From positions 1 to 60,746 of the forward strand of contig JANSXP010000044.1 of assembly GCA_024742875.1 (NCBI GenBank): DNA of 60,746 nucleotides, written 5' to 3'. The position numbers were made by a program, and so were the translations under genes. The stretch comes from Planctomycetaceae bacterium. Its GTDB lineage: Bacteria; Planctomycetota; Planctomycetia; Planctomycetales; Planctomycetaceae. Positions 37,698 to 43,157 of this stretch are shown here, in pieces. Each line of letters opens with the position of its first letter. Position 1 is the stretch's first letter. Under the pieces are notes generated by a model, which searched no databases, was not told the DNA's origin, and saw only the letters and a program-made list of their open reading frames with translations.

Positions 37698-38921
37698 TCA
37701 CTTCATCGGGAACTTATAGAGAGTTTTGCCCACCCTCAGATAGACGTCCGTACCGGCAATCGCAGGGTGTGACAGCACATCCACGCCAGGCCTGGCCAGA
37801 CTATGCCGTGAGACGACTTTCGGAACCGGCACGTCTGTGGCGATCAGCAGCAACTCCCCATTGGCCGTCAGACACAACAGGCGATTGTCGCTGGCCACCA
37901 GACTGCCATAAACACCAAAAGCATCGTCAGCGTCCGAATGCACGGTCTGCAGAGATTCCATGTCCAGAACCCAGAGTTCGTTCCAGATGCCAAACAACCG
38001 CTTGCCGGACCTGACCGGCGTATGGGAATCCGGGGTCAGATCGGCATTGACCTGCAGCGGCTCCCCATTGATCTGGCCGCCATCGGCAAAACCATAACGA
38101 CGCGTCCCGTTGTTTTCCGTGGACACCAGAATGTGCTCGCCGTCGGGTACGACCGTCGGCACATTAAAGTCCCCTTTTTCCGGCGGCACGAGGCTCCATA
38201 GACGTTTGCCGGTCGCCACATCCCAGCCTCCCAGTGACGCTGCGTCGTAGCCAATCACCTGATTCACGCCGCCAAACTGGCCGGCAATCAGAGAGGAATA
38301 ACCCGTCGAGATTCCAGGCGTCGCCCACAGCACATCTCCGGTTTCCGGATGCAGCGCCACCACGGAGTGGCGTTTGCCTCCGGGCTGCACAATGAGTTTG
38401 CCGTCCACAATGATGGGTGACCCGGAGTGCCCCCAGGTCAGTTCTTCGGCCTGAAATTCCGCCGCAATGTTGCGTTTCCAGAACGGCAGGCCGCTTTCCA
38501 GTTCGATGCAGTGCAGGTCACCGAACGCGCCCAGCGTAAACACCAGGCCGTCATGAATCAGGGGAGTGGCTCGTGGGCTGTTGCCATAATCCAGAGAGCC
38601 GCGGGCCGGATAAAAGTGCTGCCACAGCAGGTCACCCGACTGGCTGTCAAAACACTGAAAGACGTCGCTTCTGTCGAGAATGTCGCGACTGCCGACCACC
38701 ACACAGCCGTCAGCCACAGCAATGCCGCCCACTCCCTCTCCGGTAAGCTCCGCTTCCCAGGCGGGAGCGAATGATTCGGGAAGCAACTCCGGCAGCCACG
38801 AAACGCGACCGTCCCGGCGGGCGCCTCGCCAGCCGGGCCAGTCAGCGTTTGTGTCAGCGACTTTGGCGGCTACTTTTTTTTTAACGATGCGGGCGTCGCC
38901 GATTTGGCCGCCGGCTTCCAC
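37698..38921 (-). CDS. PQQ-like beta-propeller protein, possibly made only as a frameshift fusion
   Basis: A frame of up to 407 residues, with the propeller beginning at DWPGWRGARRDGRVSW, a typical first-blade motif of planctomycete PQQ-like proteins. Later blades show GDLLWQHFYP, GDVLWATPG and GKRLWSLVP. It has no signal peptide, although such proteins are usually exported. The only nearby start is GTG 38921, inside the PhnD-like gene and without a clear ribosome site. The frame is -1 relative to the PhnD-like gene, and the two meet at the A9/A AAA AAG site at 38873-38882. A -1 slip would join this propeller to the secreted PhnD domain through a Lys/Ala linker. An independent start or a sequence error in the A run are the alternatives. 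Confidence 0.75.
   Translation of the reverse strand: MEAGGQIGDARIVKKKVAAKVADTNADWPGWRGARRDGRVSWLPELLPESFAPAWEAELTGEGVGGIAVADGCVVVGSRDILDRSDVFQCFDSQSGDLLWQHFYPARGSLDYGNSPRATPLIHDGLVFTLGAFGDLHCIELESGLPFWKRNIAAEFQAEELTWGHSGSPIIVDGKLIVQPGGKRHSVVALHPETGDVLWATPGISTGYSSLIAGQFGGVNQVIGYDAASLGGWDVATGKRLWSLVPPEKGDFNVPTVVPDGEHILVSTENNGTRRYGFADGGQINGEPLQVNADLTPDSHTPVRSGKRLFGIWNELWVLDMESLQTVHSDADDAFGVYGSLVASDNRLLCLTANGELLLIATDVPVPKVVSRHSLARPGVDVLSHPAIAGTDVYLRVGKTLYKFPMK
38813..38837 (-). other. GC-rich hairpin downstream of the slippery site
   Basis: A 6-bp outer stem (38813-38818 with 38832-38837), one mismatch and a 4-bp inner stem (38820-38823 with 38827-38830) around a 3-base loop. It lies about 35 bases downstream of the A AAA AAG heptamer in the direction of translation. 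That is farther than the usual 5-9 bases for a frameshift stimulator, so a role is uncertain. Confidence 0.4.
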
Positions 38922-39736
38922 GCCTGAAAGCCCACACTGGTTTCCAGCGCCACCAGCAGTTCTGCATTCAGCTCGACATCCAGCAGCGCCGTGGTGATCT
39001 GTTTGCGATCGTCCGCAGACACGCGATCACTGACGAACGCTGTGATGAATGGCACAGATTCACTGCGGCCAACGACGCGCAGATCGCCCTTTTTGATGGT
39101 GCCACAGCCTTCCAATAGTGGTGCCGCATAACTGGAGATCACGGCTGCCGCTTTCACGTCAGCCGGCAGGTCCATCAGCGCGGCGGCCGCCGTGCTGCAG
39201 GCTGGCGATGTTTCCAGCTTTTCCGGCAGGCTGATGCCCGCCTTCTTCAGCAACGCCACGGGAGCCGCATTCTTCTCATCACAGTCCTCAGGACCAAAAA
39301 AGATACGGTAGCCCTCGAGATCCTTGACGGACTTTGCAGCGTCTGCTTTGCGAACCACAATCAACCCGGCCTGGGTCGCCGTGCCATCCACACCCGTCAG
39401 CGAAGCGACGGGCTTCATTTTGGCCTTCAGCGTTTTGGCGTCGAACTTCACGACCGAGTGTTTGCCGATCACGATGTCTGCCGGGCCGTTCTCCTTCACC
39501 GCAGTGGTGAGAGATTCTGACCACACCACTTTGACGGGGCGTCCCAGTTCCTTCTGCAGGTAGGATCCCAGCTTCTCGTATTTCCGCTGGGCATATCCCT
39601 GCACACAGTCACAGGCCAGAGGGGCCGCCAGTGGATCCATCACCACCAGCGTCAGGCCGCTCGGCTTTTCCGTGGCGACCGCTGGCAGACAAAAGGCTGC
39701 CAGCAGCAGCAAAAAGGTCGATCTTCTCACACTCAT
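38870..39736 (-). CDS. PhnD-like phosphate/phosphonate-type substrate-binding protein
   Basis: A 288-residue exported protein with a signal peptide (MSVRRSTFLLLLAAFCLPAVA) and a PhnD/ABC substrate-binding fold. Family-like segments are YEKLGSYLQKELGRPVKVVW, ADIVIGKHSVVKFD, AGLIVVRKADAAKSVKDLEG and, near the C-terminus, VPFITAFVSDRVSADDRK. No ABC permease or ATPase is nearby, so it may bind a ligand for sensing or redox work rather than import. Its ATG overlaps the upstream propeller gene (ATGA), with a GGAG ribosome site. It ends ASLKKK followed by TAG, where the A9 run forms a dnaX-type slippery heptamer. Confidence 0.85.
   Translation of the reverse strand: MSVRRSTFLLLLAAFCLPAVATEKPSGLTLVVMDPLAAPLACDCVQGYAQRKYEKLGSYLQKELGRPVKVVWSESLTTAVKENGPADIVIGKHSVVKFDAKTLKAKMKPVASLTGVDGTATQAGLIVVRKADAAKSVKDLEGYRIFFGPEDCDEKNAAPVALLKKAGISLPEKLETSPACSTAAAALMDLPADVKAAAVISSYAAPLLEGCGTIKKGDLRVVGRSESVPFITAFVSDRVSADDRKQITTALLDVELNAELLVALETSVGFQAWKPAAKSATPASLKKK
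38873..38882 (-). other. Candidate -1 frameshift (slippery) site, A AAA AAG in an A9 run
   Basis: On the minus strand the last codons of the PhnD-like gene read TTA AAA AAA AAG TAG. This contains the X XXY YYZ heptamer A AAA AAG (38873-38879) in the correct zero frame, with the stop immediately after. A -1 slip continues as AAA AAA GTA GCC into the PQQ-like frame. The T9 on the plus strand is 38874-38882, long enough for transcriptional slippage as well. The heptamer is that of E. coli dnaX; use in this organism is inferred. Confidence 0.55.
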
Positions 39737-41538
39737 TCTTTTTCTCCGGCCGATTCAGCGGCCACATCTTCGTCTGCCGTGCCGGAATCTCCCTCAACAG
39801 CATCGCTGTCCTTGGGAGCTTCCACAGGAATACGGGTGTAAACCTTGGTGGACATTACCTGGTCACCGTACATCATCGAAAATTCCGCTTTGTCGTCGCT
39901 GAGCAGCTTCACGGAATACTCGTTGTAAGAGATGCCGTCTTCCAGGTGCAGGAAACGAATCGTATTCGCCTTCAGATCCTGACTGACAGGCTCCCAGCCG
40001 TTGTTGCCGTTCTCACTGTAGGTGCCACGAATGTCCATTTTGCCATCGGCATGAAAGCAGAAGTACGTCACGTCCTGGCTCATGACAACTTCTTCGTCTT
40101 CCACCTCGGCGTCTGCGTCGCCGCTGTCACCGAGAATGACGGAGATGGCGCCGAACACACCAGCATTGCCAGCCTTCGCTTTGGCCGGACGTTTGCCGTC
40201 CAGAGACCATTCACCGGAAAGCGTCTTTCCGTCGCCCACCAGTTTCTGCCCCAGTCCTTCGCGGGCCGCTTTGGCCAGCAATTCGTCTTCAGTAAATTCG
40301 GGCGCTTCCGATCTGGGCAGCAGCACGCAGATGGCATTGCGATCTTCATACTGCATGTAATAGCGATCCCGCTTTTCGTCGTGACCGATGGCGACGTGCT
40401 TGCAGCCTCCGCCAATCCGCGCTTTGCCAACCGTGCCGAGGAACTCACCCTCTTTGTTGAAGCGTTTGATGTAGCCGATGCTGGATTCTGCGGTCAGGAT
40501 GTCACCGTTACTGCAGCATTTGACATTCATGGGATTGCAGCAGCTGCCAAAGCCCTCTTTGGAGGTCCGGTCCTGACTGCCAAAGCCAGACACCCGGTTA
40601 CCGTCGCGATCCAGCAGACCAACCTGAAACTTCGTGTTTTCGGCCAGCACCAGATAGTCTTCATTGGCCTGAATGTCACACTGCCCACAGCAGCCACCCA
40701 GGTCAGAGACCACTTTTTTGGGCTCTGACAGCTCGTGGTTCATCCGCCACACTTCATAGCCGTAGCCTTCGGGAGATCCACAGCAAACGTAAAGATCTTT
40801 GGAATTGACGGCCAGGCTGGTGATTTCCATGGAACGCTGCAGCATGGTGTCCACAGAGAACATGTCAGCGTACATCTCTTCCATCTGCTCCTGCTGATCG
40901 CAGAACATCTTTTTCTGCTGCTCCAGAACCTTGATGCGTTTCTTTTCGCGATCGGTCAGCTCCGCTTCGTCCTTAGCGGCCAGCTTTTCCAGCATTTTTT
41001 CCACGCGTTCCGTCTGCTCTTTCATCGAGCCGGTCAGTTGTTCCATCTGCTCTTTGGCAGCTTTCTCCACTTTGGCACGCAGCTCGTCCATATCACCCAG
41101 GTGAGGAGAATCGGCTGAGGCCAGAACTTTGCCTGCGGCACTCAAATGAGCCACTTTGCCGGCGCCTGCCACAAAGATGGATCCGTCGGCCGCTTCATTG
41201 ATGGCCGTGGGTTTGAAGTCGAGTTCAAATTCGCACAGCAAATCGCCGTCCGGAGAATACTTCTGCAGCAGCTTGGGCGCAGAAATGGTCTTCGTGGTGA
41301 AGCTGCCGTCTTCTGCCGGCAGGTATTCCATTTTGTCGCCCCCGACACACGCCAGAATGTTGCCATCCCGATCAAGAGTGAAGGTGTTCAGGCCAATTGG
41401 CTTCCCATCATGAGAGGGGCGAATCATCCGCACCTGTTTGTGGGTGGAATCAAATGGGGCCGGCTTACTTTCGGCACTGGCGGGCTGTGCACTAAGACAG
41501 ACAGCAAACCCAAGCAGGGCAGCGCGAGACAGGGACAT
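39733..41538 (-). CDS. Secreted Cys-motif NHL-like propeller with coiled-coil insertion and extra C-terminal domain
   Basis: A 601-residue exported protein (signal MSLSRAALLGFAVCLSAQPASA; ATG 41538 has a GGAG site). NHL/SMP-30-like propeller blades at about 45-145 and 238-405 are interrupted by a charged coiled coil (about 150-230). Three conserved Cys clusters stand out: CCGQC (283-287), CCNPMNVKCC (333-342) and GGCKH (378-381). The last 180 residues add an acidic linker and a beta-rich domain (SQDVTYFCFHADGKMDIRG) ending in an acidic tail. It is a paralogue of the next gene upstream, which lacks the C-terminal domain. The stop overlaps the PhnD-like start. The Cys/His set suggests metal binding or disulfides; the function is unknown. 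Confidence 0.82.
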   Translation of the reverse strand: MSLSRAALLGFAVCLSAQPASAESKPAPFDSTHKQVRMIRPSHDGKPIGLNTFTLDRDGNILACVGGDKMEYLPAEDGSFTTKTISAPKLLQKYSPDGDLLCEFELDFKPTAINEAADGSIFVAGAGKVAHLSAAGKVLASADSPHLGDMDELRAKVEKAAKEQMEQLTGSMKEQTERVEKMLEKLAAKDEAELTDREKKRIKVLEQQKKMFCDQQEQMEEMYADMFSVDTMLQRSMEITSLAVNSKDLYVCCGSPEGYGYEVWRMNHELSEPKKVVSDLGGCCGQCDIQANEDYLVLAENTKFQVGLLDRDGNRVSGFGSQDRTSKEGFGSCCNPMNVKCCSNGDILTAESSIGYIKRFNKEGEFLGTVGKARIGGGCKHVAIGHDEKRDRYYMQYEDRNAICVLLPRSEAPEFTEDELLAKAAREGLGQKLVGDGKTLSGEWSLDGKRPAKAKAGNAGVFGAISVILGDSGDADAEVEDEEVVMSQDVTYFCFHADGKMDIRGTYSENGNNGWEPVSQDLKANTIRFLHLEDGISYNEYSVKLLSDDKAEFSMMYGDQVMSTKVYTRIPVEAPKDSDAVEGDSGTADEDVAAESAGEKE

Positions 41539-41675
41539 AAAAGGCTCCGGTGTGAGAAAGGATGCCAGTTGCGAGCTGTTGGAAAAAAGTTGTACGTCAG
41601 AACGATGACTGCGGACGAACGTCCGCAGTCGCTGTTGCCGTCGGGAGTCGAACTCCGGCAAAAATTGTTCAGAAA

Positions 41676-41718
41676 AACGAGAAGAGCGGCGAAATTCTTC
41701 GCCGCCCATTTTCTCGTT
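41676..41718 (-). terminator. Intrinsic terminator after the first propeller gene
   Basis: A compound hairpin: an outer 8-bp stem (41676-41683 with 41711-41718) and an inner 8-bp stem (41686-41693 with 41698-41705) with an ATTC loop. In the minus direction it is followed by a T5 run. It lies 14 bases beyond the stop of the gene at 41733-43157. Confidence 0.8.
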
Positions 41719-41732
41719 GCCCTCTCGAATGA

Positions 41733-43157
41733 CTACCGCTCAATTTCGATGGAAATTGTCTGAACGGCCCGAGAGCGTCTGGCTGGGACCGGTGACGATT
41801 CGGAAATCTCAGCGTCCAACTCACTCGCTTCTTCTGATGGTTCAGGATTGGCAACCAGCACACAGATGTGCCCTTTGTCGATATTCATCGTGTAGTAGCG
41901 ATTGCGTTTTTCGTCAAAGGAGACCGCCACGTGTTTGCAGCCACCACTGATGGCCGCTTTTCCAACAAGCCCCAGATATTCTCCTGAGGCGCTGAATCGC
42001 TTGATATTCCCGACGGTGGATTCGGACGTGATGATATCGCCGTTGCTGCAGCACGTGACATTCATCGGATTGCAGCAGCTGCCAAAGCCATCAACGGACG
42101 AGCGATCCCGCTTGCCAAAACTGCTCAGGCGTTTACCGTCACGGTCCACCAGCGAAACCTGAAAACGCGTGTTTTCTCCGATAACGATGTTGTCGCCGGC
42201 CGCCTGTACGTCGCACTGCCCACAGCAGCCGCTCAGCCCCGTCATGATCTGTTTGGGAGACGACAACTCGTGGTCCAGTCGCCACACTTCGTAGCCGCGT
42301 CCTTCAATGGAGTTGGTGGTGATGAAGACATCTTTTTTTGTCGCCGCCAGTGAGGTGACGCCCAGCTTTCTTTGCAGCAACGCTTCCGGAGAGTAGATCC
42401 GCGAATACGTCTGCTCCATGCGGGCCGCCGTCTGCTCGTACATTTCCAGCTGCTTTGGCAGGGTCTTGAGCATCTGCTCATCGCGGGCCGTCAATTCCTC
42501 TTCAGACTTTTCTTCCAGTGCGGCCATCCGCTCTTTCACGCCTTCGATCATGTCGGCGTAGCGTTTGGTCACCGTTTTCATCTGCTCTTTGGCCTCAGCA
42601 GCAATGCGATCAGTCAAAGAATCCAAATCACCCACGTGCGGCGAGTCCACAGTCAGCAGCACCTCTCCGCCAGCCGAAATTCGCGCTAGTTTCCCTGTGC
42701 CCGCTGTCAGCACGCTGCCGTCCGGCATGGCAGTCACGGCCGTCGGCGTGAACTCCAGTGCCGTCTCACGGACCAGCTTGCCAGCCGGAGAGTACACCTG
42801 CAGCAAGCCGCTGGACGCACCATCGGTCGCAGCCACAGGTCCGACGCATGCAAGAATTTGGCCGTCAGCATCCAGCGTGAATGTCTTCAGGCGAACGGGG
42901 CGTCCATCATGCATTGTCTGGATGATGGAGGTCTGGCTGTGCGAAGCAACCTTCGGTTCGGGCTGAGGCGGCTCAGGCTTGCTCGCCTCGGTTTTCAGCA
43001 CAGCAATCTCAGCGGCCGCTGTCGCGGGATCAACAATTCTGATTCCCAGTTTGACGTTGGGTGGCAGAGCCGCTTTTTCGTCGTCGGCAGCAGCGTGCGG
43101 CAACGCAACAAAGGTCGTCAGCAGCGCAAGGCCGAGGAATGGACGGGGTCGCTTCAT
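41733..43157 (-). CDS. Secreted Cys-motif NHL-like propeller with coiled-coil insertion (paralogue)
   Basis: A 474-residue exported protein with a signal peptide (MKRPRPFLGLALLTTFVALPHAAA), a Pro-rich spacer (about 58-72) and propeller blades at 75-175 and 265-430, split by a coiled coil (about 176-258). It carries the same Cys clusters as the downstream paralogue: CCGQC (311-315), CCNPMNVTCC (361-370) and GGCKH (406-409). It ends in a Ser/Glu-rich tail and lacks the extra C-terminal domain. It has its own terminator, so it may be expressed at a different level from the paralogue. No known family function can be given. Confidence 0.82.
   Translation of the reverse strand: MKRPRPFLGLALLTTFVALPHAAADDEKAALPPNVKLGIRIVDPATAAAEIAVLKTEASKPEPPQPEPKVASHSQTSIIQTMHDGRPVRLKTFTLDADGQILACVGPVAATDGASSGLLQVYSPAGKLVRETALEFTPTAVTAMPDGSVLTAGTGKLARISAGGEVLLTVDSPHVGDLDSLTDRIAAEAKEQMKTVTKRYADMIEGVKERMAALEEKSEEELTARDEQMLKTLPKQLEMYEQTAARMEQTYSRIYSPEALLQRKLGVTSLAATKKDVFITTNSIEGRGYEVWRLDHELSSPKQIMTGLSGCCGQCDVQAAGDNIVIGENTRFQVSLVDRDGKRLSSFGKRDRSSVDGFGSCCNPMNVTCCSNGDIITSESTVGNIKRFSASGEYLGLVGKAAISGGCKHVAVSFDEKRNRYYTMNIDKGHICVLVANPEPSEEASELDAEISESSPVPARRSRAVQTISIEIER

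Follow-up and report, generated by a model that had tools for sequence, protein, structure and literature searches.

The PhnD-like and propeller reading frames

The window (the whole stretch of 60,746 nucleotides from a Planctomycetaceae bacterium that was analysed) belongs to a draft genome of 8.18 Mb in 168 contigs. On its minus strand, a gene encoding a PhnD-like protein ends in TTA-AAA-AAA-AAG-TAG, and the sequence encoding a propeller lies in the -1 frame relative to it. The features of this locus are as follows.

43157-41733, minus strand: second Cys-rich NHL-like paralogue, the farther upstream of the two
39733-41709, minus strand: Cys-rich NHL-like protein upstream of the PhnD-like gene, with weak ScyF NHL similarity far under the cut-off
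38870-39736, minus strand: PhnD-like periplasmic substrate-binding-type protein, zero frame, 288 aa, ending in SLKKK before the stop (PF12974, E=4.5e-26)
39671-39736, minus strand: hydrophobic, signal-peptide-like N-terminal segment of the PhnD-like protein, judged by eye
38919-38921, minus strand: GTG, the sole start-like codon of the propeller frame, located inside the PhnD gene and judged not to be a start
38874-38882, minus strand: A9 run (T9 on the plus strand), the slippery site
38876-38882, minus strand: A_AAA_AAA heptamer within the A9 run
38873-38879, minus strand: in-phase A_AAA_AAG heptamer within the A9 run
38870-38872, minus strand: TAG, the zero-frame stop, 1 base past the run (G at 38873 between)
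38841-38872, minus strand: -1-frame linker between the two domains, spanning the slip site to the first conserved motif of the propeller
38799-38873, minus strand: possible stimulatory hairpin in the 75 bases past the run (-38.1 kcal/mol, z -2.7), weakly supported across relatives
37698-38882, minus strand: BamB/PQQ-like propeller of the -1 frame, covering the A9 run through to the propeller's stop (PQQ_2, E=6.8e-28)
37965-38669, minus strand: best PQQ_2 profile match inside the propeller (residues 85-319 of the open reading frame beginning at the GTG)

A preliminary description of this DNA had reported an A9 run with an A AAA AAG heptamer and an immediate TAG, and these positions are exact. 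Its identification of a PhnD-like protein with a signal peptide agrees with the PF12974 match and with the appearance of the N-terminus, and the -1 frame does continue past the run for about 390 codons, into a PQQ_2 (BamB-like) propeller. Its statement that the propeller frame has no ATG holds, but one GTG (38921) is present. The ATG of the PhnD-like gene overlaps the stop codon of the upstream NHL-like gene (ATGA), and the two genes therefore probably share one transcript. The pair of NHL-like paralogues (39733-43157), which is located directly 5′ of the PhnD-like gene, carries the motifs CCGQCD, FGSCCNPMN and CCSNGD; going by the N-terminus, as judged by eye, a similar pair precedes PhnD in another of the loci that we collected (L155).

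The PhnD-like part belongs to the wider PF12974 family, and its scores lie far below the PhnD equivalog cut-offs (TIGR03431, 25.1 versus 261.1 bits; TIGR01098, 42.1 versus 112.05). Likewise, the propeller falls far short of the cut-off of the BamB equivalog (TIGR03300, 41.3 versus 285.2 bits), and its fold is similar: BamB propellers stand at the head of the first 50 Foldseek matches, with tetrathionate hydrolase and quinoproteins among the matches listed. Four cysteines of the PhnD-like part (window residues 42, 44, 180 and 211) are conserved in 111-112 of the 112 aligned rows and possibly form a metal site or disulfides. No transporter permease or ATPase was found among the six window proteins scanned.

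Recurrence of the joint among planctomycete relatives

Named genome contigs supplied 50 loci with relatives of the PhnD-like gene, and further loci came from sets of genomes that overlap one another. Among 58 near-relative genomes, 12 gave matches at E up to 0.001. With the limit set at 1e-20, matches came from 42 of the family's 170 genomes, 82 of the 397 in the class and 17 of the 392 in the phylum. Of the 149 loci gathered, 135 had both PhnD and the propeller, and merging identical 180-base strings reduced these to 113 distinct junctions, among which close relatives remain. The loci dropped were one without a PhnD match at 1e-5 (L020) and 13 without a propeller match. These include one locus represented twice (L018/L065), in which an A9 run is present and the contig ends 127 bases past the PhnD match, as well as loci with a propeller motif in frame (L019/L070 and L061), loci in which a long in-frame extension gave no match to the propeller query (L147 and L148), and loci that end too early (L055 and L068). 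Four PhnD copies with enough downstream sequence and no propeller match (L030, L106, L107 and L139) contain no run of A7 or more. Two of the latter, L106 and L107, share their genomes (G151 and G064) with the run-bearing copies L075 and L071. The bins titled Candidatus Kuenenia stuttgartiensis (L053, L054, L057 and L060) group closely with Planctomycetaceae bins (L051/L052), and these titles look misassigned.

Of the 113 distinct junctions, 70 place the propeller in the -1 frame relative to PhnD, 41 place it in frame and two place it in +1. Every one of the 70 -1 loci carries a run of A8-A10 at the joint: A9 in 52, A8 in 16 and A10 in one of 69 loci, and A9 also in the 70th (L089), which is -1 at the joint and whose propeller is broken further on. 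Among the 41 in-frame loci, any run is A7 or shorter in 35, whereas it is A8-A10 in six (L039, L085, L087, L088, L090 and L126). Loci with A8 or more thus comprise 70 in the -1 relation, six in frame and one in +1, and Fisher's test of the run against the -1 relation gives p=8e-23 (uncorrected for kinship). The preliminary description had proposed -1 slippage at A9, by the ribosome or by RNA polymerase, with an exported fusion and a short PhnD form as the products; that the run, the stop and the -1 relation are conserved in 70 of 113 distinct loci speaks for such recoding.

Three loci depart from these two main arrangements. In L013 (the same locus as L023), an A10 run is present at the joint and the propeller is in the +1 frame, so that joining the two parts would need the loss of one A in the message. 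In L046, there is no A-run, the relation is +1, and PhnD and the propeller are about 180 bases apart; this is possibly the one locus with a separate propeller gene. In L102, which is counted as in frame, a TAG stands between PhnD and the propeller, the PhnD frame ends at about 2269 and no A-run is present; this TAG may represent readthrough, an error or a separate gene.

The sequence of the slip site is constrained in several respects. First, the zero-frame stop lies 1 base past the run in 53 of 69 -1 loci and 3-6 bases past it in 14, that is, within 1-6 bases in 67 of 69; it lies 10 bases past the run in L095 and 16 in L042. Second, the base after the run is G in 62 and C in seven of the 69. 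Third, all 16 A8 sites and 47 of the 52 A9 sites share one phase, in which A_AAA_AAG or A_AAA_AAC is retained where the run ends, and the A9 sites as a whole occupy all three phases (47, 3 and 2 loci). At the 47 A9 sites in the most frequent phase, the run always begins on the third base of a codon, and this codon differs (GCA, GTA, TCA, TTA or CCA); thus, the residue varies and the A is kept. In the same genes, the background share of A at third positions is 0.153, AAA makes up 0.39 of the lysine codons, and the mean G+C of the loci is 0.577.

Runs of this length are rare elsewhere. The coding strands of the 69 loci contain A8 or longer outside the joint only four times in 351,574 bases, and one of the six other KKK triplets in these genes is coded with A8. 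In the 8.18-Mb genome of the window, A9G occurs 11 times, counting both strands, and only the PhnD-propeller occurrence joins two long frames; the other ten sites were accordingly rejected as recoded genes.

Polymerase or ribosome as the level of the proposed slippage

How might one such gene give rise to two proteins? We propose that, in the bacterium of the window and in many of its planctomycete relatives, the A8-A10 run ahead of the stop probably allows a single gene to yield two exported proteins. The unslipped message would yield the PhnD-like binding protein ending in KKK. If one A were added to the message (a net -1 frame), translation would read past the stop, through a flexible linker and into the BamB-like propeller, and the resulting fusion would export the propeller on the PhnD signal peptide. 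The likeliest level would be that of RNA polymerase, slipping on the A8-A10 run as it does in Thermus dnaX and Citrobacter tssM; the ribosome might assist by slipping at the in-phase A_AAA_AAA/A_AAA_AAG. Our conclusion is that the joint is a conserved programmed frameshift, with a short binding protein and its fusion to the propeller as the expected products, and we regard polymerase slippage as fairly probable.

The joint would be a further, widespread case of the known poly-A programmed frameshifts, notable for the breadth of its conservation and its natural controls. As in the published descriptions of Thermus thermophilus dnaX, an A9 run is combined with two products per gene, here proposed, and two lysine tRNAs in the organism (PMC5009743, PMC1088944); there, however, slippage gives the shorter product within one open reading frame, whereas here it would give the longer product from two frames. 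In Citrobacter rodentium tssM1 (A11, polymerase slippage), the run is likewise located just before the stop and slippage leads to the longer protein, and both forms are reported to be needed (PMC4256274). In contrast, the authors of that report describe one further slippery tssM alone (PMC4256274), whereas the present joint recurs in 70 loci and lies at the junction of two domains. The report on magnesium-chelatase genes describes poly-A -1 frameshifting in which an A-run joins adjacent genes, as here, and fused homologues exist; a nine-A cassette from these genes gave 40% frameshifting (PMC3711429). The protein family of the magnesium-chelatase genes differs from that of the present pair. Moreover, magnesium-chelatase products are not known to be exported. 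E. coli dnaX has the same A_AAA_AAG heptamer, in equal phase and with a stop soon after it. Its frameshift uses Shine-Dalgarno and stem-loop stimulators. Unlike E. coli dnaX, the present loci have no clear upstream element and occur in genomes with usually two lysine tRNAs, whereas E. coli is described as having a sole one (PMC5009743).

Among the alternatives, programmed -1 ribosomal frameshifting survives best, and we consider it possible, if doubtful. It holds that tandem lysine tRNAs slip on A_AAA_AAG or A_AAA_AAA before the stop, so that the same two products arise from an unedited mRNA. The preliminary description had placed its emphasis on this dnaX-type mechanism; its heptamer is indeed in phase, and RNA polymerase slippage nevertheless appears to fit the loci somewhat better, so that we prefer the polymerase by odds of roughly two to one. 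First, polymerase slippage is expected of homopolymers of about 8-9 or more, with phase not essential, and the runs are of 8-10 rather than 6-7, longer than one heptamer, with all three phases represented at the A9 sites. Second, an A8 locus followed by C (L038) offers A_AAA_AAC alone, a heptamer reported to be of low efficiency in E. coli, although some insertion sequences probably use it (PMC4066793), and the A10 locus in the +1 relation (L013) cannot be joined by a -1 shift. Third, tRNA-Lys(CUU), a second lysine tRNA, was found in six of seven genomes tested with one fixed anticodon-loop pattern; this search did not find Lys(CUU) in G025 or Lys(UUU) in G046, which is no proof of absence. 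A possible connection between two lysine tRNAs and polymerase slippage in Thermus has been suggested (PMC5009743). Fourth, there is no clear enrichment of a Shine-Dalgarno-like stimulator upstream of the run: strong sites occur in 0-7 of 69 loci per offset, as compared with 6.9% of 276 control positions, and none occur at offsets 9 and 12.

Several observations favor the ribosome. An in-phase heptamer of the X_XXY_YYZ form is present in the -1 junctions inspected, and all of the A8 sites keep the AAA-AAR/AAC ending. The phase preference of the A8 and A9 sites is what ribosomal slippage would prefer and argues against the polymerase, although common descent may also explain it. A study of ribosomal sliding on lysine-encoding stretches of A has also been published (PMC4363877). 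Downstream RNA structure is slightly stronger than in shuffled sequences (mean z -0.64 and -0.92, versus +0.12 and +0.27 for controls), and the 75 bases past the run of the window itself fold strongly. This weak excess across loci is partly shared with the fused loci: when set against the fused loci, the -1 loci have the stronger structure in one test of three (p=0.016), with p=0.15 and 0.64 in the remaining two. In addition, runs of A are reported to induce less slippage by E. coli RNA polymerase than runs of T do (PMC6260861), which weakens the case for the polymerase.

Evolution and possible role of the joint

We considered that the -1 genomes might simply be off-states, in which slippage during DNA replication toggles A9 and A10 between cells or species. 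In favor of such phase variation or drift, A9 -1 and A10 in-frame forms are found side by side within one genus (g49). L085 looks like an in-frame run interrupted by a substitution. A quick tree of 112 rows was used to follow the joint; it was built with no mixture model, leaves 25 of 109 inner branches open and carries a long-branch warning. On this tree, the -1 and in-frame states change nine times (shuffles, 33.3), and well-supported branches force five of these changes. The reconstructed substitutions per column number about 24.8 for the -1 state and 11.4 for the fused one. With the root set at the midpoint rather than inferred, it falls in the -1 state. The A8 forms also keep the -1 relation, and therefore seem to have arisen by substitution rather than by deletion. 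Furthermore, the propeller is under purifying selection, as judged from a dN/dS of 0.06-0.16 (computable for nine of ten close pairs). A single indel would fuse the genes, yet the run-bearing loci are overwhelmingly in the -1 relation, which points to selection for the slippery state. Toggling by replication slippage is therefore an improbable account of these loci.

The suggestion that the propeller is a separate overlapping gene with its own start, such as the GTG at 38921, is very unlikely. Start-like codons exist in 23 of 69 -1 loci, including the window, and the locus without a run and in the +1 relation (L046) may be such a case. However, these codons lie anywhere between -712 and +129 relative to the run; no ATG, GTG or TTG stands ahead of the first conserved motif of the propeller in 46 of 69 loci, and no ATG does in 66 of 69. 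In 33 of 69, moreover, the -1 frame becomes open only within the last 30 bases ahead of the run. An independent start was therefore rejected as a general explanation. A homopolymer error in sequencing or assembly that masks a normal fused gene, which the preliminary description had named as the main alternative and which might be suspected because the break falls on a homopolymer in a draft assembly (168 contigs), can be dismissed as a general explanation with a negligible residue of doubt, because the run, the stop and the frame recur in 70 distinct loci, including those of single-contig genomes (G025, G046 and G067) and of the isolates Rubripirellula obstinata (A9) and Gemmata sp. IIL30 (A8).

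The in-frame relatives bear on what the products of a programmed frameshift would do. The -1 extension is 325-434 aa long in the 68 complete loci. A structure model of a naturally fused relative (L025) has a mean pLDDT of 88 and consists of two confidently predicted domains; residues 275-301, a low-confidence linker between them, coincide with the slip site of the other loci. The pTM of the model is 0.60, and the relative placement of the domains is not to be read from it. The preliminary description had held that relatives with an uninterrupted frame would count against recoding. Such relatives do occur (the 41 in-frame loci, one of them with the in-frame TAG), but 35 of the 41 lack A8 or longer; this speaks for the fusion as the functional product, and is not evidence against recoding where the run is kept. 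That the run is mostly gone from the fused lineages also suggests that the short form is not needed everywhere, a point against the proposal. As a working guess from the sequences, the locus may encode a ligand- or metal-binding module of the cell envelope, with its free and propeller-tethered forms kept in a ratio. We see about an even chance that an ancient polymerase slippage, spread over several planctomycete families, sets the ratio of free to propeller-tethered binding protein, that selection keeps the joint out of frame, and that several clades and single lineages have given it up for a constitutive fusion.

Our literature searches on a PhnD-propeller pair in Planctomycetes found no paper. 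The main text of the magnesium-chelatase study (PMC3711429) makes no mention of PQQ, phosphonate, phnD, Rhodopirellula or Pirellula, and its supplementary cluster tables may contain an unnamed cluster; similarly, the first 300,000 characters of PMC5009743 make no mention of Planctomycetes, PQQ or phosphonate. If the proposed frameshift is correct, two neighboring reading frames in many planctomycete genomes would in fact be one gene, and the propeller, otherwise without a start or an export signal, would be an exported protein. To our knowledge, few deeply conserved programmed frameshifts are known in non-mobile bacterial genes besides prfB and dnaX. The close in-frame relatives, the fused clades without a run and the PhnD copies without a propeller provide natural controls, by which the reason why a lineage would keep a slippery joint over a plain fusion becomes directly testable.
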